From contig NZ_CP029642.1 in the NCBI RefSeq assembly GCF_003268655.1, forward strand, positions 496,001-560,000: a stretch of 64,000 bases of DNA. The letters run 5' to 3'. The notes under the pieces were generated by a model. It ran no database searches. It saw only the letters and a list, made by a program, of their open reading frames with translations, and was not told the origin of the DNA. The translations under genes and the position numbers were made by a program. Origin of the DNA: Arthrobacter dokdonellae. GTDB taxonomy: Bacteria; Actinomycetota; Actinomycetes; Actinomycetales; Micrococcaceae. Shown one piece after another: positions 16,958 to 64,000 of this stretch. Every line of letters starts with the position of its first letter. The first letter of the stretch is position 1.

Positions 16958-18439
16958 ATGAGCACTGAGGAAATCAATGACGTTGGAAGTTCGTGGCGCC
17001 GGGTTATCCGAATTCTTGAACAGGATGACCGCGTGTCACCGCGTCAGCGTGGCTTCGTCGTTCTCACCCAACCGCAAGGACTCATCGGAAATACGCTTCT
17101 GGTGGCCGTCCCCAACGAGCTGACCCGCGAAGTCCTTCAGACCCAGTTGAGCAAAACACTCGTTGACGCGCTGCGGCAGGTCTTCCCTGAAGAAATAAGC
17201 TGCGCCTTCAGTGTCAACGCGGACCTGGTGCCTCCTGCCAAGGAGGAGGAAGCCGCCCCCGCCGATGACCCGGTCCGGACCGCCCGCCCGGAACGCGCCG
17301 AACGGACCGAGCGCATCGACCGAAGCGAGCGCATCGAGCGAACCCACGGCAGTGATAGCGCCTCCAAGCCGTCCCCGATGCTTCCGAGCACCTCCCATGA
17401 ATTTGGGCGCCTCAACCCCAAGTACATCTTTGACTCCTTTGTGATTGGTGCGTCCAACCGCTTCGCCCATGCTGCGGCCGTGGCCGTGGCGGAGGCACCT
17501 GCCAAGGCCTACAACCCGCTGTTCATCTACGGGGACTCCGGGCTGGGCAAGACCCACCTTCTCCACGCCATCGGCCATTACGCCCGCCGCCTTTACACCG
17601 GAATTCGTGTCCGTTATGTCAACTCCGAGGAGTTCACCAACGATTTCATCAACTCGATCCGCGACGATGAAGGAGCAAGCTTCAAGCAGCTCTACCGCAA
17701 TGTGGACATCCTGTTGATTGACGACATCCAATTCCTGGCCAACAAGGACGCCACCCAGGAAGAGTTTTTCCATACCTTCAACGCCCTTCACAACCACAAC
17801 AAGCAGGTGGTCATCACCTCCGACCTTCCGCCCAAGCGATTGCAAGGCTTTGAGGAGCGCATGCGCTCACGGTTTGAGTGGGGCCTGCTCACCGACGTCC
17901 AGCCGCCGGAGCTGGAGACCCGCATCGCCATTTTGCGTAAAAAAGCCATCGGCGAAGGCCTGTCCGCGCCCGACGACGCCCTGGAGTACATCGCGTCCAA
18001 GATCTCGACGAACATCCGTGAGCTTGAAGGTGCCTTGATCCGGGTGACGGCCTTCGCGAGCCTCAACCGCCAGCCCGTGGATGTGGGGCTGGCCGAAATG
18101 GTGCTGAAGGACCTCATCACCGACGACGGCGCCCAGGAAATCACGTCCACCGCGATCCTGGGTCAGACGGCCGCCTACTTCAACATCTCCATGGAAGAGC
18201 TGTGCAGCAAATCGCGGACCAGGACCCTGGTGACGGCCCGGCAGATCGCCATGTACCTGTGCCGTGAACTGACGGACATGTCCCTGCCCAAGATCGGCCA
18301 GGAGTTCGGCGGTCGCGACCACACGACGGTGATTCACGCGGACCGCAAGATCCGCGAACTCATGGCGGAGCGACGGGCAATCTACAACCAGGTCACCGAG
18401 CTCACCAACAAGATCAAGCAGCAGCAGCGCGAGGGCTGA
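16958..18439 (+). CDS. dnaA: Chromosomal replication initiator DnaA
   Basis: 493 residues. Domain I (residues 1-90) is the DnaB/partner-binding region and domain II is a charged linker. The AAA+ domain III has Walker [10 protein letters not shown] (192-200) and Walker [11 protein letters not shown] (251-260). Domain IV ends with the DNA-binding signature [15 protein letters not shown]. The linker (about residues 107-130) contains a near-periodic Glu-Arg run ([18 protein letters not shown]), which is unusual but plausible for a disordered spacer. DnaA binds the boxes on both sides of this gene and opens oriC. Confidence 0.98.
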
Positions 18440-50153: not shown

Positions 50154-55432
<5,279 letters not shown>

Positions 55433-55455
55433 CCACAAAAACAACACCACATGCC

Positions 55456-55469
55456 CGCGTTCACTATAT
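55456..55469 (+). repeat. 3' arm of the 23S processing stem
   Basis: cgcgttcactatat, the exact complement of 52106-52119. Confidence 0.8.
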
Positions 55470-55661
55470 GGTTCCCCAACAACAAACCCAACAGGTTTGC
55501 GCCCCGGGAAAAACCAGCACACCCCACCCACCCCCCCCAAAGGGGCCGGGAAGGGCGTGTATAATCAAATACTGTTGTCCACAACAGGACACCAACTACA
55601 GAATTCCCCCGCACCACCGAAACCCCAACACCAAGGGGCCGGCACCGCGGGCGGAGGAAGA

Positions 55662-55779
55662 GTTACGGTGGTCATAGCGTGGGGGAAACGCCCGGTCCCA
55701 TTCCGAACCCGGAAGCTAAGACCCACAGCGCCGATGGTACTGCATTCGAGAGGATGTGGGAGAGTAGGACACCGCCGGA
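55662..55779 (+). rRNA. rrf: 5S ribosomal RNA
   Basis: About 118 bases beginning gttacggtggtcatagcg, with the conserved cccggtcccattccgaacccgg and ending gagagtaggacaccgccgg. The 5' and 3' ends pair to form helix I. Confidence 0.96.
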
Positions 55780-55796
55780 CAACACCAACAAGGGTA

Positions 55797-55860: not shown

Positions 55861-57039
55861 TCAGACCGCCGCCGCCACCGCCGCCGCCACCGCAGGGGCA
55901 ACGCGCGGGTCCAGCGGGCTCGGGACTATGTGGTCCGGCGCCAGGCTGCCGGCCGCCAGCTCCGCAATGGCCTTAGCCGCCGCCAACTTCATGGCGGGCG
56001 TGATGCGCCGGGCGCCGGCGTCGAGCGCGCCACGGAAGATGCCGGGGAACGCCAGCACATTGTTGATCTGGTTGGGGAAGTCGCTGCGGCCCGTGGCCAC
56101 CACGGAGGCGTACTGCTGCGCCACCTCGGGCATGACTTCCGGGTCCGGGTTGGACAGGGCAAAGATGATGGCATCCGGATTCATGCCGGCCAGAGCTTCT
56201 TCGGGGATGGTCGAGGAAGACACACCGACTACAACGTCCGCCCCGTTGAGGGCCTCGGTTATGCCGCCCCGAAGGCCCTCCCGGTTGGTCTTCGCCGCGT
56301 AGACGGCCTTGACGGCGTTGAGCCCGTCCCGGTCCCGGTGGATGATTCCGCGGGAGTCCAGAAGCACCACGTCGCCAAGGCCCGCGTCGATCAGGATCTG
56401 CGCCACGGCTATCCCGGCGGCGCCCGCGCCCGAAATGACGGCGCGCATGTCGCCAAGTTCCTTGTCCACCACCTTTGCGGCGTTGCTGAGGGCGGCCAGG
56501 ACCACAACGGCGGTGCCGTGCTGGTCGTCGTGCATGACGGGGCAGTCCAGCGCCTCGATCAGGCGTTCTTCCAGTTCGAAGCAGCGCGGGGCGGAAATGT
56601 CCTCAAGGTTGACCGCGCCAAAGCTGGGGCGGAGCCGCACCAGGGTCTCGATGATTTCCTCTACGTCCGTGGTGGCCAGCACCAGGGGGATGGAGTCCAG
56701 GCCGCCAAAGGTCTTGAAGAGGGCGGACTTGCCCTCCATGACGGGCAGGGACGCGCTGGGGCCGATGTCTCCCAGGCCCAGGACGGCTGTTCCGTCGCTG
56801 ACCACGGCCACCAGCCGGCTGGCCCAGGTGTGGCTGCCGGCCAAGGCAGGATTGGCGGCGATGGCGCGGCTGACCTGGGCCACGCCCGGCGTGTAGGCGA
56901 TGGACAGGTCCCGTAGGCTGTCCAGGGGGACCTTGCTGCTGACGGAGAGCTTGCCGCCACGGTGGGCCGCGAAGATCTCCTGTTCCGAAAGGGCAATCTG
57001 GCTGCCGGTGGATGGGGTCAGGGTTGCTTCTAGTGACAT
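55861..57039 (-). CDS. NAD(P)-dependent malic enzyme
   Basis: 392 residues from the ATG at 57039. The malic enzyme signature includes SIAYTPGVAQVSRAIA, the metal-binding FELEERLIEALDCPVMHDDQHGTAVVVLAAL and the nucleotide-binding GAGAAGIAVAQILIDAG. It oxidatively decarboxylates malate to pyruvate, giving NAD(P)H. The length is that of short bacterial malic enzymes without the phosphotransacetylase domain. The extreme C-terminus is an Ala/Val run (PAVAAAVAAAV) from GCC-like repeats, which is odd but harmless. A 10-bp inverted repeat (57161-57170 with 57181-57190) in the upstream gap could be an operator or the terminator of the jet operon. Confidence 0.95.
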   Translation of the reverse strand: MSLEATLTPSTGSQIALSEQEIFAAHRGGKLSVSSKVPLDSLRDLSIAYTPGVAQVSRAIAANPALAGSHTWASRLVAVVSDGTAVLGLGDIGPSASLPVMEGKSALFKTFGGLDSIPLVLATTDVEEIIETLVRLRPSFGAVNLEDISAPRCFELEERLIEALDCPVMHDDQHGTAVVVLAALSNAAKVVDKELGDMRAVISGAGAAGIAVAQILIDAGLGDVVLLDSRGIIHRDRDGLNAVKAVYAAKTNREGLRGGITEALNGADVVVGVSSSTIPEEALAGMNPDAIIFALSNPDPEVMPEVAQQYASVVATGRSDFPNQINNVLAFPGIFRGALDAGARRITPAMKLAAAKAIAELAAGSLAPDHIVPSPLDPRVAPAVAAAVAAAV

Positions 57040-57160
57040 GTGTTTTTCCTGCGTCGCTTCCAAGGTGGGAGACGCGAGAGCGTCCGGGCGGAGATTTGCC
57101 TGGACGACGGCGACTGCCGCGCAGAGTGGTGGGGCGCGGCACTGCCTCGCAGCGCCGGTC

Positions 57161-57190
57161 CCATGCCTGTACGTCGGTGGACAGGCATGG
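57161..57190. terminator. Inverted repeat between jetC and the malic enzyme gene
   Basis: ccatgcctgt and acaggcatgg are perfect complements around a 10-base loop, about 100 bp after the jetC stop in transcription order. It may end the jet transcript or act as an operator for the malic enzyme gene. Confidence 0.5.
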
Positions 57191-57284
57191 GTGCGTCCGG
57201 CATGTGCTGAAAGTTTGTTGACACCGACACTACCCGGGGCGGCGGCAGGAATCACAAAACCGCGTGAAATCGTGTCACATTGGG

Positions 57285-60200
57285 TTACCGCAGGATGATG
57301 TCCGTCGCCGTGGCGGGGGAGCGGCCCGAGGCGACAAAGCCGGAGATGTTCGCCTGCGGGTGCTTGATGATGTCCGTTACCGAGCCAAGGTGGCGTGAGA
57401 GGTCCACCTTGTCCTCGGGCGCGGCCAGCAGCAGCTGGAAGCCGAATTCCTGCAGCGCGTTGATGCCGGCACCGGCGTACTCGGAGTTGGCCTGGATAAA
57501 GGCCTCGTCGATCATGACCGTTCCATAGGTGCTGTAGCCCTGGGTGTCGATGCCCAGCTGGTAGGCCAGGGCGGCGCCCATGATGAACGACGTGAAACGC
57601 TGCCCCTCGCCGCCGGACAGGGTGCCCGGTTCCAGGCCAAGCTCCACCTCGCCGTTGGGCCGGTGCTCATTGCAGCTGATTCTCACGTGCTGGCGGACAT
57701 CCAGGACGGTGTCGGCCCAGGACTGCAGGGAGGGATCGCTCAGGGCGTCCACCAGCCGCTCCAGCTGCTGGTAGCTGGCGGCCATTTTTTCCTCGGTGGC
57801 CTTGGCGTACGCGTTGCCCAGGGCTTCCTTCAGGTCGGTGCGGAATGCACGGGCTTCGTCGGGGACGGTGGTGGCCACATCCAGGCGCAGCCGGCTGCCC
57901 TTCTCAAACGGCACGTCCGCGAGGATCTGGTTCAGCGGCAGGATCCGCTCGGCGATGGCGCGCCGCTCCTCCTCCAGCAGCTGCAGGAGGTCGGAAAAGC
58001 GCTCGTAGGAGCGGTTGTTGAAGTATTCGCGGAATTCGTCCTGGCGCTGCGGCAGCCCGTCGGCGATGATCCGCCCGTACAGCTCTTCGTAGTGTTCGGC
58101 CGCGTCGGCACCGGTGCCGTAGCTGGCGCCCATGCCCGGCCCGAACTCGCGGGCAAACGCCTTGAAGAGTTCGGTCAGCGCGGCTTCGGTGCGGAATACG
58201 CGTTCCTTGGCCGTGGCCGCGCGCTCCCCGAGATCTACGGCTGCATGGCCAAAAAGCTGTTCCAGTTCCTCCAGGGTGGCCGGCCCGCCGTCGGCAGTGT
58301 AGGGGGTGAAGGCCTCCACGGCCCACCCGGCTGGCGGCTCCTTGGCGGCCTTCGCGGCGGTGGCCTCGGCCGCGTCCTGGACCGTTTTCAGTTCACGCTC
58401 CACCGTGGAGAGGCTGTTGTTGAGCACGGCCACGCGTCCGACGGCGGCCTCCAGCTCCGCTTTTGCCCCGCCCAGCTGCTTCCTGATGCTGGCGAGCGTG
58501 GCGCTGCTGTCGATGGTCGTCTGGAGTGCCTGCCGGAGTTGCTCCAGCTGCGCGGCCAGGGAGCCGGAATCGAGCTGTTCAAATGGCCGGACGTCCTTGG
58601 CTACCCGCCGGAGCGCCTCCAGCCTGCCCTTGAGCTGGTCCTTGGCCTTGCTGCGTTGGTCGGCGAGGGCCGCCGCGCTTTCGCAGGCGCCTGCCAGCTC
58701 GTCGGCGCGGGCCTCCAGTTGTGCAATCTTGTCCACATTGGTGAAGCCAAGGAGGTAGTCGGCCGGGTTGACCGCCCGGGTGTCGCGCTCAAATGTGGAG
58801 GAGCTGGCCTTCACGGTCCCCGCCAGGGAGATGGCCCGCTCATGGGCGTGCAGTTCCGCGTCGTTGTCCACGCAGCGGAAGGCGAAGTCGCGGGCCACCT
58901 TGGCACGCAGCCAGCCTCCGGCGTCGGACGCATGGAATTCCAGCTTGGCCGCAAGGTGGTCCTCGCCGGGCTCGGTCTGGCGCGCCGGCGTTCCCATGTC
59001 GATCCACCGCACCCGGCCGAAGCCGTCCAGCCCGTTGACGGCGCGCGTGACGGCCTTGATGTCCCCGCCGCGCACCAGCAGGGTGGTGGCCAGGGAACGC
59101 AGCACCTTTTCAGCGGCGGGACGCCAGGCGGCGTGGCCGCCGGCGATGTCCACGAGCTCGCCGGCAAAAGGCAGGTCCGCGGGGTCAAGGCCGGTCTCGG
59201 CGCAGATGGCGCGCCGGGCCGCGGCATTGCGGCCGTCGATGTTGGTGCCACGCCGCTGGTACGAGGCAATCTCCGCGCGGAGCTTCTTCTCCTCGGCTTT
59301 GGCGTTGATGCTCTCAGCTACGGCCTCGTACTCGCGCGTGCGGGCCGTTTCTGTTTCCGCCTGCTGAAGCTCGACGCCGGCGCCCGCGCTTTGGCGTGCG
59401 GCCGCCAGTCCCTCCGGGGTCCAGCCGACCTCGAGGCCGGCCGCTTCGAGGTCCTCGCGGACCGACGTCTCCACGCGCACGCGCTCCTCCAGCTCGCGCC
59501 TGGCCGCACGGATGTCCTTCTCCAGGCCTTCAATGGCGCGGCCGCCGTGGTTGGCGTGCTGTTCGTCGAGGGCCGCCACGGATTCGGCCAGGAGGTCCTT
59601 GGCGGCCGCCGCCGCTGCGATTTCGGATTGCGTCAGCGCACGCTGCTCCTGCAGGGCAACTGCCTTGGCGGCGAGCAGCTCCGCCTGGAACTGGAGCCGA
59701 AGGAGCGGCAGCTGGACATTTTTTAGCTCAACTGTGCGGCCGTGGGAATCCTTGAATTCCCGCAGTTTTTGGTGGAGTTCGGGCACGGGCGCCAGGGCGT
59801 CGCGCTGGCCCCGGGCGTCCTCGAGCTGGCGGTAGATGCCGCGCAGGTGGCTGAAGTCGTCCACGGCCGCCCGGGCCGCGGCCAGGGTGGCGGGCTTGTC
59901 CAGCACCTCATAGCGGAAGAACCTGTTGACGCCCTTGTCCAGGCCCTTGCCGTTCTGCAGGGTGCGCAGCAGGCTGAAGGCCTTGTCATTGTCGATCCCC
60001 AGCTTCCGGCGGAAGCGCTCGGCAAACGTCTTGTGAACGTCGAAGGCCTCGCAGCCCGGCAGCGCGGCATGCAGGGACGACGGCGAGAAGCGCCGGCTCC
60101 CGTGCCTTTCCAGCGCTTCCGTGTCGAGGGGGCGGTCGTGGATCACGTAATGCTTGCCCACCTGGCCCTCCAGACCGTTGGCGGGCAGGTCAAAGAGCGC

Positions 60201-60587
60201 GGCGATCGTGACGTGGCGGCCCAGGCCGTCCTCGAAAACGAGGGCCGTGGCGGACCAGGTGGCGCTGGGCCGCTGGTACACGGTGCCGTCAGGGGTTTTG
60301 ATCTTTCGCCCGCGCATGTAGCTGAAGGTGGTGCGGCGGTCCTTGCGGTTGGATGCCTCGTGGGCGGATTCGTTCAGCCGCGGGGCGGCGTAGAAGATGT
60401 GTTGGATGCCGTCAAAGAGGGTTGACTTGCCCACGCCCGGATGGCCCGTGAGCAGCGTGCCGGCGCGGTCAACGTACATGGCGTGGCGGCCGTGGAAGGT
60501 GCCCCAGTTGATGATCTGGATCTGGCTGAGCCGGTATTGGCCGGGGTTGATTTCCGTGCCGATGGGCAAGGTGGTGGCGATGCTCAT
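57285..60587 (-). CDS. jetC: Wadjet SMC-like ATPase JetC
   Basis: 1100 residues with a MukB/JetC-type layout. Walker A is TGHPGVGKST (about residues 47-56), long coiled-coil arms rich in Ala/Glu/Arg flank a central hinge near residues 480-600, and the C-terminus has the ABC signature LSGGEGQ (990-996) and Walker B TVMIDEAF (about 1023-1030). In Wadjet systems JetC pairs with JetA and JetB to form a condensin-like motor that extrudes small circular DNA. The ATG overlaps the jetB stop. In known type I systems the jetD nuclease gene follows jetC; here the next gene is a malic enzyme, so JetD is missing from this place. Confidence 0.9.
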   Translation of the reverse strand: MSIATTLPIGTEINPGQYRLSQIQIINWGTFHGRHAMYVDRAGTLLTGHPGVGKSTLFDGIQHIFYAAPRLNESAHEASNRKDRRTTFSYMRGRKIKTPDGTVYQRPSATWSATALVFEDGLGRHVTIAALFDLPANGLEGQVGKHYVIHDRPLDTEALERHGSRRFSPSSLHAALPGCEAFDVHKTFAERFRRKLGIDNDKAFSLLRTLQNGKGLDKGVNRFFRYEVLDKPATLAAARAAVDDFSHLRGIYRQLEDARGQRDALAPVPELHQKLREFKDSHGRTVELKNVQLPLLRLQFQAELLAAKAVALQEQRALTQSEIAAAAAAKDLLAESVAALDEQHANHGGRAIEGLEKDIRAARRELEERVRVETSVREDLEAAGLEVGWTPEGLAAARQSAGAGVELQQAETETARTREYEAVAESINAKAEEKKLRAEIASYQRRGTNIDGRNAAARRAICAETGLDPADLPFAGELVDIAGGHAAWRPAAEKVLRSLATTLLVRGGDIKAVTRAVNGLDGFGRVRWIDMGTPARQTEPGEDHLAAKLEFHASDAGGWLRAKVARDFAFRCVDNDAELHAHERAISLAGTVKASSSTFERDTRAVNPADYLLGFTNVDKIAQLEARADELAGACESAAALADQRSKAKDQLKGRLEALRRVAKDVRPFEQLDSGSLAAQLEQLRQALQTTIDSSATLASIRKQLGGAKAELEAAVGRVAVLNNSLSTVERELKTVQDAAEATAAKAAKEPPAGWAVEAFTPYTADGGPATLEELEQLFGHAAVDLGERAATAKERVFRTEAALTELFKAFAREFGPGMGASYGTGADAAEHYEELYGRIIADGLPQRQDEFREYFNNRSYERFSDLLQLLEEERRAIAERILPLNQILADVPFEKGSRLRLDVATTVPDEARAFRTDLKEALGNAYAKATEEKMAASYQQLERLVDALSDPSLQSWADTVLDVRQHVRISCNEHRPNGEVELGLEPGTLSGGEGQRFTSFIMGAALAYQLGIDTQGYSTYGTVMIDEAFIQANSEYAGAGINALQEFGFQLLLAAPEDKVDLSRHLGSVTDIIKHPQANISGFVASGRSPATATDIILR

Positions 60588-61276
60588 TCTGTGCCGTCCT
60601 CGGTCGTGTCATCCGCGTCCAGGGCGGCCAGGTAGGCCGGGATCTGGTCGATGGCATCAAAGGGCAGCGCCAGTGCCATGGCGTTGCTGACCCGGTACTC
60701 GCCGGGGAGCTCGGTGGGCAGGAGCAGTTTCAAGGCCAGCAGCCGGGCGAGGGACGCATCCGTCTGCTCGTCCAGGCGCTTGTCATCCACGGCTCCGGGC
60801 TGCCGGTGCTCGGCCAGGATTTCCCGCGCCCCGCCGCGGGTGATGGTGGCGTCCGTTCCCGTACCGGACTGCCGGTCCAGCAGCAGGCGCAGCCGCAGCG
60901 CCAGCAGGGTCTCCTCGCGGCGCAGCGGCTTGCGGGCCACGATGGGCTGCGTGTGGACCGCGTCGATCCCGGCCGGGGTGAGCAGCGCGATCTTGCGTTC
61001 CGGATCCACCGTCAGCAGCAGGAACACTTCGCTCAGGTACTGCTGCAGCGAGGCCCGGTGGGTGAGGATCGTGGTCCACAGCGGCGCGTCCACGGTGCCG
61101 TCGATGTACGGTCCACGCAGCAGGCGGACCAACGCCTGGCGCAGCTCCAGGGGGAACGATCCAGTGTCCCCGGGGAAGAGGGAGCGTTCGGAACGGTACG
61201 CGTCACCGGGGCCGGCAGCGGTGGGCGGGGCGCCGGCGTCGTACGTTTCCTGGGAAGTCACGGAACTGGGGGTCAT
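60584..61276 (-). CDS. jetB: Wadjet subunit JetB (DUF4194)
   Basis: 230 residues with the DUF4194 core (ELRQALVRLLRGPYIDGTVDAPLWTTILTHRASLQQYLSEVFLLLTVDPERKIALL, then RREETLLALRLRLLLDRQ), a winged-helix kite subunit related to MukE/MksE. It bridges the kleisin-like JetA and the JetC heads. Start and stop overlap the neighbouring genes (ATGA on both sides), which fixes a stoichiometric operon. Confidence 0.9.
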   Translation of the reverse strand: MTPSSVTSQETYDAGAPPTAAGPGDAYRSERSLFPGDTGSFPLELRQALVRLLRGPYIDGTVDAPLWTTILTHRASLQQYLSEVFLLLTVDPERKIALLTPAGIDAVHTQPIVARKPLRREETLLALRLRLLLDRQSGTGTDATITRGGAREILAEHRQPGAVDDKRLDEQTDASLARLLALKLLLPTELPGEYRVSNAMALALPFDAIDQIPAYLAALDADDTTEDGTE

Positions 61277-62730
61277 GGGGCGGTGTCCTTTGTGAACGTC
61301 ACCAGCGGCAGGCGGGCGGTGCGCTCCGTGCCGTCGATCTGGGTGAAGCGGAGGGCCTCGGTGCGCGCCGGGTCCACGGCCTGGTCGGTGGCGCGGGCGG
61401 CGAGGATGAGGCCGCGGATGGTGTTGATGTGGCGCTGCTGGGCCGGCATCTCGGCGTAGGCGTCGGCGAGGGTGGCGGTGCCGTTGCGTGTGCTGCGCGC
61501 CAGTGCGACGGCGGCGTGGACGGCGGCCATGTCCGGCAGCGGCGTGGCGGGGGTGCGGTGGATGTCGGCGCCGCTGAGGGCTGGAGGGGCGGCGAGCGGG
61601 GGCGGCGGGACGTGGTCTTCGGGGTTGAAGATGCCCAGCCCGGCAAGTGTTTCAAAGGCGGGGGCGTACAGCAGCGGCTCCATCACGGGCGTCCGCGGGC
61701 CCAGCGGGGCGCGGGCCACGGCCTGTTCGGCGGCGTGGATGGCCTTGCGCAGCAGGACGGACTCCCGGAATTCGTCGCTCATCACGTAGCTGTGGAGGCT
61801 CTCGGACAGGCGGCCGTAGATGGCGTGGACGTCCGCTGCCTGGCGGCGCATTTCGCGGACCAGGGTGGCCAGCGTGCCGCGTTCCTCGCCCGTGAGCTGG
61901 TCCGTGAAGCCGCGTTCGAGCACCTCGTTGACGGCCTGCCGGAAGCGGGCCTGGCGGGCGGGGTCGTTGAGGAACTCGGTGAACCCCTGGAAGGTTTCGC
62001 CCTCGGCGGTGTTGCGCAGCGCCTTGTCGCCTTCCAGCACCTGGCCCACCGCCACGCCCTTGGTGACGGAGGATTCCATGATTTCCTGCCGGATGGTGTG
62101 CAGCATCCCCTCCACGCCGTCGCGCATGCGCTTGAAGTCGGCAGGGAGGCTGGAGGCCAGGTCGAGGACGCTGCGCGTGGCCGCCAGGGCGGAGTTCTCG
62201 GAGAGGACGGCGGGGTTCCGGCCGTTCCGCAGGGCCTCAATCTCTCCAAGCCGATCGGCGATTTCGGCCTCAAGCACGGCAACGCGGTGATCCGGGTTGG
62301 GGTCCGTCTGGAAGGACAGCGTTTCAATGCTGGTCAGCAGGGTGCTCAGCCTTGAGCTGTTCAGGTTGGTGCGCTCCACCGTGAACGAGTCCAGGAACGC
62401 GAGCACGCGGGTGGTGGCGGCGGTGGGTTCGTAGACAAAGCGGCCGTCCACCATGGGGCGGGACAGGAACTGGCTGCGCACCCACGAGTCGGCATAGTTG
62501 GAGGCCTGCCACGACTCGTTAAGGCTCAGGTTCTCGTGCCGCAGCTCCTTCATGAACGCGGCGAGGTCCGCGTGGAATTCCTCCAGTGGAACGCGCTGGC
62601 GGGCCGCGGTGAATTCCGCCCTCAGGAAGGCGACGGACCAGGGCGCGGCCTGCAGGAGCCGCCAGGCCGGGCTGAGCCGCAGCTGCTTTTGGGCATGCCA
62701 CTGCGCAACGGCGTTGTCAGTGGAGCGCAT
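61273..62730 (-). CDS. jetA: Wadjet subunit JetA (DUF3375)
   Basis: 485 residues matching DUF3375: WRLLQAAPWSVAFLRAEFTAARQRVPLEEFHADLAAFM at the N-terminus, then a long helical region, and a winged-helix-like C-terminal part. In type I Wadjet this protein is the kleisin that closes the JetC ring. It is the first gene of the jetA-jetB-jetC operon and lies 61 bp after a helicase gene on the same strand with no hairpin between them, so they may be co-transcribed. Confidence 0.9.
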   Translation of the reverse strand: MRSTDNAVAQWHAQKQLRLSPAWRLLQAAPWSVAFLRAEFTAARQRVPLEEFHADLAAFMKELRHENLSLNESWQASNYADSWVRSQFLSRPMVDGRFVYEPTAATTRVLAFLDSFTVERTNLNSSRLSTLLTSIETLSFQTDPNPDHRVAVLEAEIADRLGEIEALRNGRNPAVLSENSALAATRSVLDLASSLPADFKRMRDGVEGMLHTIRQEIMESSVTKGVAVGQVLEGDKALRNTAEGETFQGFTEFLNDPARQARFRQAVNEVLERGFTDQLTGEERGTLATLVREMRRQAADVHAIYGRLSESLHSYVMSDEFRESVLLRKAIHAAEQAVARAPLGPRTPVMEPLLYAPAFETLAGLGIFNPEDHVPPPPLAAPPALSGADIHRTPATPLPDMAAVHAAVALARSTRNGTATLADAYAEMPAQQRHINTIRGLILAARATDQAVDPARTEALRFTQIDGTERTARLPLVTFTKDTAP

Positions 62731-62791: not shown

Positions 62792-64000
62792 TCAGCGGCC
62801 GCACAGGCCGATGAACGCGCCGAGTTCGGCCATTGCTGCCGGCTTTGAGGGCATGAAGTTGGTCAGCTGGGGGGAACGGATGATGACCGCGCGCCACTGC
62901 CCGCGTGAGACCGCCACATTGATCCGGTTGCGGTTTAGCAGGAATTCCATGCCGCGCGGCGCGCTGGCGGGGTCGGCGCAGGCCATGGTCACAAGCACGA
63001 CGGCGGCTTCCTGGCCCTGGAACTTGTCCACGGTGCCCACCCTGACATCCTGCAGTCCGGCGTGGTCGAGGCTGCCGCGGACCAGGTGGACCTGGGCGTT
63101 GTAGGCCGCCACCACCAGGATGTCCTCCTGGCGGAGCGGGCGGGGGGCCTCGCCGGCGCCGGGCGTCCACGGCAGTCCGATGTGCGCCTTCGCCTGGGCC
63201 ACCACCTCGGCGGCCTCTTCCGGGGAGGACTGCCTGTTCTCGCGGCCGTTGTCCGGGGCCTGCGCCACGAGGACGGTTTCCACGCCTGCGGGCCGCCCGG
63301 CCAGGTGGCGTGTGGACGCGGCCGGCGCGGATTTGAGCCTGCCCTCGTAACTGAGCATTGACACGGCGGCACACAGATCCGGGTGCATGCGCCAGGAGTC
63401 GGCCAGGAAGTAGCCCTTCTCCGGCGACAGCGTGGACTCGCCCGCCGAGATCCAGCCGAGCGCCGATTCGTCCACGGGCGCCGGGTGCGAGCCCTGCGTG
63501 ACCTGCGGCAGCTGCTGTGGATCGCCCAGCAGCAGCAGCCGGCTGGCGGCCTGGGCCACGGCGAGGGTGTTGGCCAGCGAGTACTGCCCGGCCTCGTCAA
63601 TGACCAGCAGGTCCAGCGAGCCGGGCGGCACGCCGGCGCCGGTCATGGTCCACGCCGTGCCGCCGATCAGTGCTCCGCCCCGTCCGCCCAGCAGCCGGCC
63701 GAATTCCTTGTCGTCGGTGACGAGCCACGGCACCTGGTGGGGCGCCTTGAGGGATTTGCCCACCCGGGCCGGGTCCACTCCGGCCTTCTCCACCGCGGCC
63801 CGCAGCATGTTTTCCACCACCGCGTGGGACTGTCCCACCACGCCCACCTTCCAGCCGCGGGCCACCAGGTTGGCGACCACGTGCGATCCGACATGCGTCT
63901 TGCCGGTGCCGGGCGGCCCCTGGACGGCCAGGTAGGAATGGTCCAGTGCCAGCACCGCCTCCGTGATGGCGCCAATGTAGTCCACCTGTTCCGGGCTGTG
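62792..64000 (-). CDS. SF1 (Dna2/Upf1-like) helicase, C-terminal part (partial)
   Basis: The reading frame is open to the window edge, so only the C-terminal 400 or so residues are seen. SF1 helicase motifs appear in order: VQGPPGTGKTHVG (I), LLVIDEAGQYS (II), LLGDPQQLPQV (III), ADSWRMHPDL (IV), VGTVDKFQGQEAAVVL (V) and NVAVSRGQWRAVII (VI). Relatives of this layout often carry an N-terminal RecB-like nuclease domain (TM0106 type); whether this one does cannot be seen. It would unwind DNA or RNA with ATP. It sits directly upstream of jetA in the same direction. Confidence 0.88.
   Translation of the reverse strand, partial: HSPEQVDYIGAITEAVLALDHSYLAVQGPPGTGKTHVGSHVVANLVARGWKVGVVGQSHAVVENMLRAAVEKAGVDPARVGKSLKAPHQVPWLVTDDKEFGRLLGGRGGALIGGTAWTMTGAGVPPGSLDLLVIDEAGQYSLANTLAVAQAASRLLLLGDPQQLPQVTQGSHPAPVDESALGWISAGESTLSPEKGYFLADSWRMHPDLCAAVSMLSYEGRLKSAPAASTRHLAGRPAGVETVLVAQAPDNGRENRQSSPEEAAEVVAQAKAHIGLPWTPGAGEAPRPLRQEDILVVAAYNAQVHLVRGSLDHAGLQDVRVGTVDKFQGQEAAVVLVTMACADPASAPRGMEFLLNRNRINVAVSRGQWRAVIIRSPQLTNFMPSKPAAMAELGAFIGLCGR

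Follow-up and report, generated by a model that had tools for sequence, protein, structure and literature searches.

The window, by which is meant the whole 64,000-nucleotide stretch of Arthrobacter dokdonellae DNA analysed here, carries a three-gene operon, jetABC, on its reverse strand. The operon and the features discussed with it are as follows:

61273..62730, reverse strand: jetA, 485 amino acids, MksF/kleisin-like, DUF3375
60584..61276, reverse strand: jetB, 230 amino acids, MksE/KITE-like, DUF4194, with an N-terminal LFPGDTG motif
57285..60587, reverse strand: jetC, 1100 amino acids, MksB/SMC ATPase, with intact Walker A, signature and Walker B motifs
57043..57284, reverse strand: short gap 3' of jetC, where jetD starts in complete systems; no jetD here
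55861..57042, reverse strand: malic enzyme gene, a local neighbour only
62792..64000, reverse strand: 3' part of a gene for a TM0106-family RecB-like nuclease and SF1 helicase, which continues beyond the window (L003:8793-12440)
16958..18439, forward strand: dnaA, marking the origin region

The jetA/jetB and jetB/jetC junctions each overlap by 4 bp and all three frames are open, which, together with the motifs of JetC, bears out a preliminary description of overlapping genes that carry all the ATPase motifs. The family matches are to DUF3375 for JetA (307 bits), DUF4194 for JetB (88 bits) and AAA_29 and SbcC_Walker_B for JetC, and the PADLOC profiles JetA1, JetB1 and JetC1 score 753, 257 and 1078 bits, respectively. 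The operon encodes a JetA, a JetB and a JetC that belong to the type I Wadjet families, and it shares with type I Wadjet (JetABCD, MksBEFG or EptABCD) its gene order, its overlaps, its DUF3375, DUF4194 and SMC families and its PADLOC assignment. It differs in lacking JetD, the fourth gene, which combines DUF3322 with TOPRIM; a kleisin-KITE-SMC operon of three genes without MksG has the gene content of MksBEF. In comparisons with solved Wadjet structures (8dk1-8dk3, 8as8 and 8q72), JetC and JetA match strongly (E 3.5e-66 and 2.7e-22), whereas a single JetB sequence matches weakly (E 0.2) and a profile of 27 JetB sequences reaches 1.7e-16. An rRNA operon (50154-55780, forward strand) adjoins the jetABC locus, and several draft contigs of relatives stop soon after jetC. 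A scan for promoters and terminators gave a yield not above chance.

JetD in the genome of A. dokdonellae

The 19 kb around the window's jetABC (L003) contain no match to a JetD profile from 33 JetD-bearing loci, which was built from matches of at least 300 bits and whose final matches all score 333-498 bits. Matches of up to ~130 bits, obtained with a JetD profile that had drifted, were shadow hits in GC-rich frames and were discarded. A JetD hidden or displaced near jetABC was rejected on the profile searches of the genome, the family and the loci. The claim of the preliminary description that jetD is absent from the locus is thus upheld, and the next gene is that for malic enzyme, 242 bp after jetC on the assumption that it starts at the ATG at 57042. 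That a metabolic gene has taken the place of jetD is true only locally, since malic enzyme was found in just 5 of the 101 loci that represent the clade described below, two of the five being the same contig; 11 of the 101 end within 1.5 kb of jetC.

A jetD gene in the same genome, which the preliminary description had named as refuting its reading, does exist. PF09983 and PF11795 have a single match each, both to the same gene (G000:C1:824.4-825.5 kb). This is the one JetD match of the genome; it lies 267 kb away from the window's jetABC and closes a complete jetABCD (L002). For the other class of JetD (DUF2399, PF09664) there was no match in this genome, nor any in the control, so that this result carries no weight. 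DUF3375 is accordingly found twice in the genome, once per jet system. The two systems are 24% identical in JetA and 26% in JetC, and the resident jetABCD belongs to another lineage than the window's jetABC. As JetD occurs only in this distant, complete system of another lineage, the window's jetABC is a separate three-gene cassette. The genome encodes a canonical Smc as well, which brings its SMC motors of this sort to at least three, the others being the full Wadjet and the nuclease-free JetABC.

Distribution and conservation of the JetD-less clade

JetA of the window's type, referred to here as orphan, was found in 138 of 295 sampled genomes of the family (Micrococcaceae, as judged from the names of the fetched loci), at 42-100% identity and with the next match at 30%; the remaining 157 genomes are without it. 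Within the genus the orphan clade is present in 23 of 23 genomes sampled, and in most genera the band of JetA identities is narrow. Presence throughout the genus, narrow identity bands and the gap from 42% to 30% form the pattern expected of vertical descent, and inheritance of this kind, with a copy in every sampled genome of the genus, is a further difference from type I Wadjet. In a sample of the order (n=297), 15 places score 698-822 bits, all of them in this family, and the others score at most 222 bits; in a sample of the phylum (n=396) the high-scoring type occurs in two genomes, both of this family, with six others weaker. A record named Sporosarcina beigongshangi scaffold19 (L076) has a JetA 79% identical to that of the window and is probably contaminated or mislabelled.

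The orphan type (at least 44% identity, full length) is present in two of 72,556 plasmid records, both of them large Arthrobacter replicons (754 kb and 1.35 Mb); for JetA of the complete system L002, 11 plasmid records match, one at 69% and the others below 60%. Arthrobacter sp. ERGS1:01 carries its orphan jetA on the 754-kb replicon NZ_CP012477.1, which is filed as a plasmid and agrees in length, and in the position of jetA, with the contig of L038 (G263:C1, 754,192 bases). The preliminary description had mentioned chromosome organisation near the origin, and the operon does lie close to it in this genome, where dnaA (window position 16958) is 44 kb from jetA. Among 20 chosen relatives, the seven that could be placed, having dnaA no more than 6 kb from the start of the record, carry orphan jetABC at 0.15-0.37 of the half-chromosome; the other 13 were unplaceable, and with only 7 of 20 placed, origin proximity was not adopted as a trait of the clade.

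JetD itself is patchy in the family, with PF09983 matches in 70 of 295 genomes. JetD without the orphan clade is found in 28 genomes and neither in 129. One conceivable role for the nuclease encoded elsewhere is that orphan JetABC borrows the JetD of a complete Wadjet, acting as a second sensor for it. Such a JetD is available 267 kb away in this genome, and PF09983 matches occur in 42 of the 138 orphan carriers (36 once fragment-like matches are set aside), but the other 96 have no match, which argues that the cassette can do without a JetD encoded elsewhere, and the resident JetD comes from the distant lineage noted above; borrowing is therefore very unlikely. Consequently, of the three options raised in the preliminary description, a JetD encoded elsewhere is accurate for this genome and fails as an account of dependence. 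Ignoring relatedness, JetD matches are mildly associated with orphan carriage (42/138 against 28/157 in non-carriers; odds ratio 2.0, p 0.013).

The gene content of the clade was followed in 101 loci, namely the window's own, 20 from relatives and the best 80 of 201 named loci, which together represent 94 distinct JetA sequences. A profile search found JetD in none of the 101, of which 90 have at least 1.5 kb after jetC and 11 end sooner. In the window's own locus and those of the 20 relatives jetABC forms a constant trio amid changing neighbours, and the flanking genes differ between genera and often face the opposite way. One locus, L046, has a ~5 kb insertion between jetA and jetB.

Neighbours of this kind include the gene 5' of jetA, which encodes a 1215-residue TM0106-family RecB-like nuclease with an SF1 helicase and ends 61 bp before jetA. 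It is the best local candidate for another nuclease that replaces JetD. In all 42 of the 101 loci in which it was found it lies upstream on the same strand as jetA, and in eight (two being the same contig) it ends less than 200 bp before jetA, but 56 loci with at least 9 kb of upstream sequence have no copy. A test of 18 genomes gave matches in 10. Of the 10 orphan-bearing genomes among them, six have full-length copies far from jetABC (G163, G122, G020, G072, G063 and G291), three have no match (G146, G249 and G047) and one has a weak, partial match only (G207). Matches were obtained in three of the eight orphan-less genomes (G018 and G031 near full length, G002 partial) and in none of the other five. 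Copies distant from jetABC, copies without the orphan and orphans without a copy all argue against a replacement of JetD by this enzyme, which is accordingly very improbable; as an obligate effector, a tempting idea in this genus, it was rejected for want of constant co-occurrence. Malic enzyme and the nuclease-helicase are mere neighbours.

The motor itself is well preserved. Intact SMC ATPase motifs, the second feature of MksBEF, are present in 99 of 101 loci, where JetC has Walker A, signature and Walker B; the two failures are L046, in which jetC is cut by the locus end, and L146, in which the frame is split. In 15 of 15 comparisons (five locus pairs, three genes each) dN/dS is 0.08-0.35 and mostly near 0.15, for frames taken stop to stop and aligned by BLAST, such that bases outside the gene may enter, mostly for jetB; the near-identical pair L089/L090 was left out. 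Orphan jetABC is thus under purifying selection in the pairs tested. Two pairs of the canonical system give 0.08-0.27 for JetABC and 0.17-0.25 for JetD. The missing effector gene might mark orphan jetABC as a decaying remnant of Wadjet, but dN/dS values of about 0.15 and the near-universal motifs largely refute this already, and it is scarcely credible.

JetB has the motif L[FY]xGDxG at its N-terminus in 100 of 101 orphan loci. Across the wider set, L[FW]xGDxG is found in both JetD-bearing and JetD-less JetB: phenylalanine occupies the variable position in 16 of 19 JetD-less proteins with the motif (seven lack it) and in 4 of 23 JetD-bearing ones, the other 19 having tryptophan (10 lack the motif). 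The choice of residue follows the tree and, being phylogenetically confounded, was not used as a mark of JetD dependence. According to a review, the JetB N-terminus contacts JetD through an IFDR motif (PMC10586767), with which the motif described here is not equated.

Phylogeny and a probable loss of JetD

In trees of JetA (71 rows) and JetC (66 rows) the 13 orphan rows form one side of a branch with 100% support. These were quick trees with SH-aLRT support only and several long branches flagged; they hold 13 of the 101 orphan loci and no Pseudomonas sequences. The JetC tree omits L227, which is in the JetA tree and whose contig ends 141 bp after jetC. From the family f84, the JetA tree excludes the jetA-only loci L175, L180 and L184 and includes L214-L217, which have no jetC for the other tree. 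A tree of JetD (33 rows) preserves the groups found in the JetA and JetC trees, which indicates that JetD is inherited with its JetABC and that its absence reads as loss. For the orphan clade a single old loss of JetD is likeliest. The deep place of the clade differs between trees, lying beside mostly JetD-bearing groups for JetA and beside a second JetD-poor group for JetC, so that the preference for 'lost' over 'never had', although the likeliest, rests on parsimony. The preliminary description had looked to related genomes for a decision between these two; they establish absence from 101 loci, and the choice between loss and original lack is made by parsimony.

Absence of JetD is not peculiar to the orphan clade. 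In the order sample, jetA places outside the orphan clade were counted if they resembled the orphan JetA profile sufficiently, with up to five scored candidates per genome. Of 115 such places, 59 have a JetD no farther than 10 kb away and 56 do not (single-gene fragments were merged by hand in this count, and G797 and G831 are too near a contig end to be judged). Family f84, in which jetA is seen without jetC, accounts for 22 of the 56; excluding it, 34 of 91 places are JetD-less. Twenty of the 34 were fetched, and 19 proved to be jetABC trios in which jetC is followed by 3.4 kb or more of sequence without JetD, L227 being too short. The second group, from other families, is mostly JetD-less (L190, L206, L207, L218-L226 and L228-L232) and has four JetD-bearing members (L191, L193, L208 and L213), and L179, L192 and L233 are single JetD-less rows amid JetD-bearing ones. 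Other families of the order thus have jetABC without JetD as well, a hint that the motors of Wadjet may be of repeated use even when the nuclease is missing. In the f84 loci L214-L217 (also L175, L180 and L184) a JetA relative is present and jetC was not detected in up to 19.5 kb; jetB, where seen, is 2.6-5.6 kb from jetA, such that the jet genes are scattered.

A nuclease-free motor and its possible role

Two characterised relatives frame the question of function. The MksBEF of Pseudomonas aeruginosa, a kleisin, KITE and SMC complex that likewise has no nuclease and exists beside an Smc, has likely lost JetD and contributes to chromosome organisation and segregation, as summarised in a review (PMC10586767); its likeness to the window's operon is one of gene content only, the trees having held no Pseudomonas sequence. 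By contrast, the nuclease-bearing MksBEFG of Corynebacterium glutamicum is reported to have no effect on chromosome folding (PMC7083940). Set against each other, the two systems pair nuclease loss with a chromosomal role as a working hypothesis. The window's locus is probably a nuclease-free SMC motor resembling MksBEF, with a type I Wadjet-like system as its ancestor and the chromosome as its place of action.

By analogy with these complexes, the loss of JetD, loop extrusion and a chromosomal role would most likely be connected as follows. The ancestor would have been a type I Wadjet-like JetABC (MksFEB-type) SMC motor, from which JetD was presumably lost a single time, no later than the base of the clade that today extends across much of Micrococcaceae. 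JetABC would load on DNA and extrude loops like other JetABC and MukBEF complexes, and with JetD missing, extrusion could not finish with cleavage. The complex would work on the chromosome, whether for organisation, segregation or tethering, and would do so alongside Smc, as proposed for Pseudomonas MksBEF. This comes closest to the last two options of the preliminary description taken together, loss of JetD and a use other than plasmid cleavage, which are the best of its three and are partly supported. Counting against a chromosomal role are the finding in C. glutamicum, the mild positive association of JetD with orphan carriage, the retention in orphan JetB of an N-terminal motif common to many JetD-bearing systems and the absence of the clade from more than half of the family genomes (157/295).

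The main competitor is a non-cutting restriction or destabilisation of plasmids (or phage DNA) by JetABC, for example through compaction, replication block or mis-segregation. Its relatives are plasmid-defence complexes (PMC10586767; PMC7083940), as was probably its deep ancestor, PADLOC calls the locus Jet, and a JetABC-only locus of a related species has been filed as Wadjet (PMC11719660). However, no sampled genome of the genus is without the orphan type, which is mostly chromosomal rather than patchy, and Wadjet restriction in the Bacillus subtilis test system is described as requiring all four subunits (PMC10586767). Restriction without cutting is, on balance, unlikely.

The related species is Paenarthrobacter lasiusi, in which strain S21 has a second system given as 'Wadjet: JetA, JetB, JetC' beside a full type I (PMC11719660, Table 6). 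The resemblance is by description only, and unlike the interpretation favoured here, the consulted portion of that paper files the locus as a defence system with the missing JetD undiscussed. No discussion of a nuclease-free JetABC clade in Micrococcaceae was found in the literature searched, including the accessible parts of PMC10586767, PMC10123090, PMC10512200, PMC7083940, PMC4255302, PMC12287153 and PMC11719660; most subscription papers lay outside the search, which is not proof of absence.

The counts for the order bear on the annotation of defence systems. Since JetD is missing within 10 kb at 56 of the 115 jetA places outside the orphan clade, a tally of 'Wadjet' that relies on JetABC alone overstates defence, and the listing of the JetABC-only locus of P. 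lasiusi as a defence system is an example (PMC11719660). For the chromosomal role favoured above, the broader possibility is that a Wadjet motor has been domesticated in this family, with a single nuclease loss yielding a third SMC machine that became fixed in at least one genus and took on a chromosomal job such as origin-proximal organisation; this has slightly less than an even chance of being right. Such a domesticated JetABC may share its cell with a complete Wadjet and with Smc. A vertically inherited nuclease-free JetABC, sometimes beside a complete Wadjet, means that natural strains offer the motor for study separately from the cut, and the many members of this family that inherit a motor with no cutting subunit suggest that a defence machine has become an ordinary chromosome-handling one.
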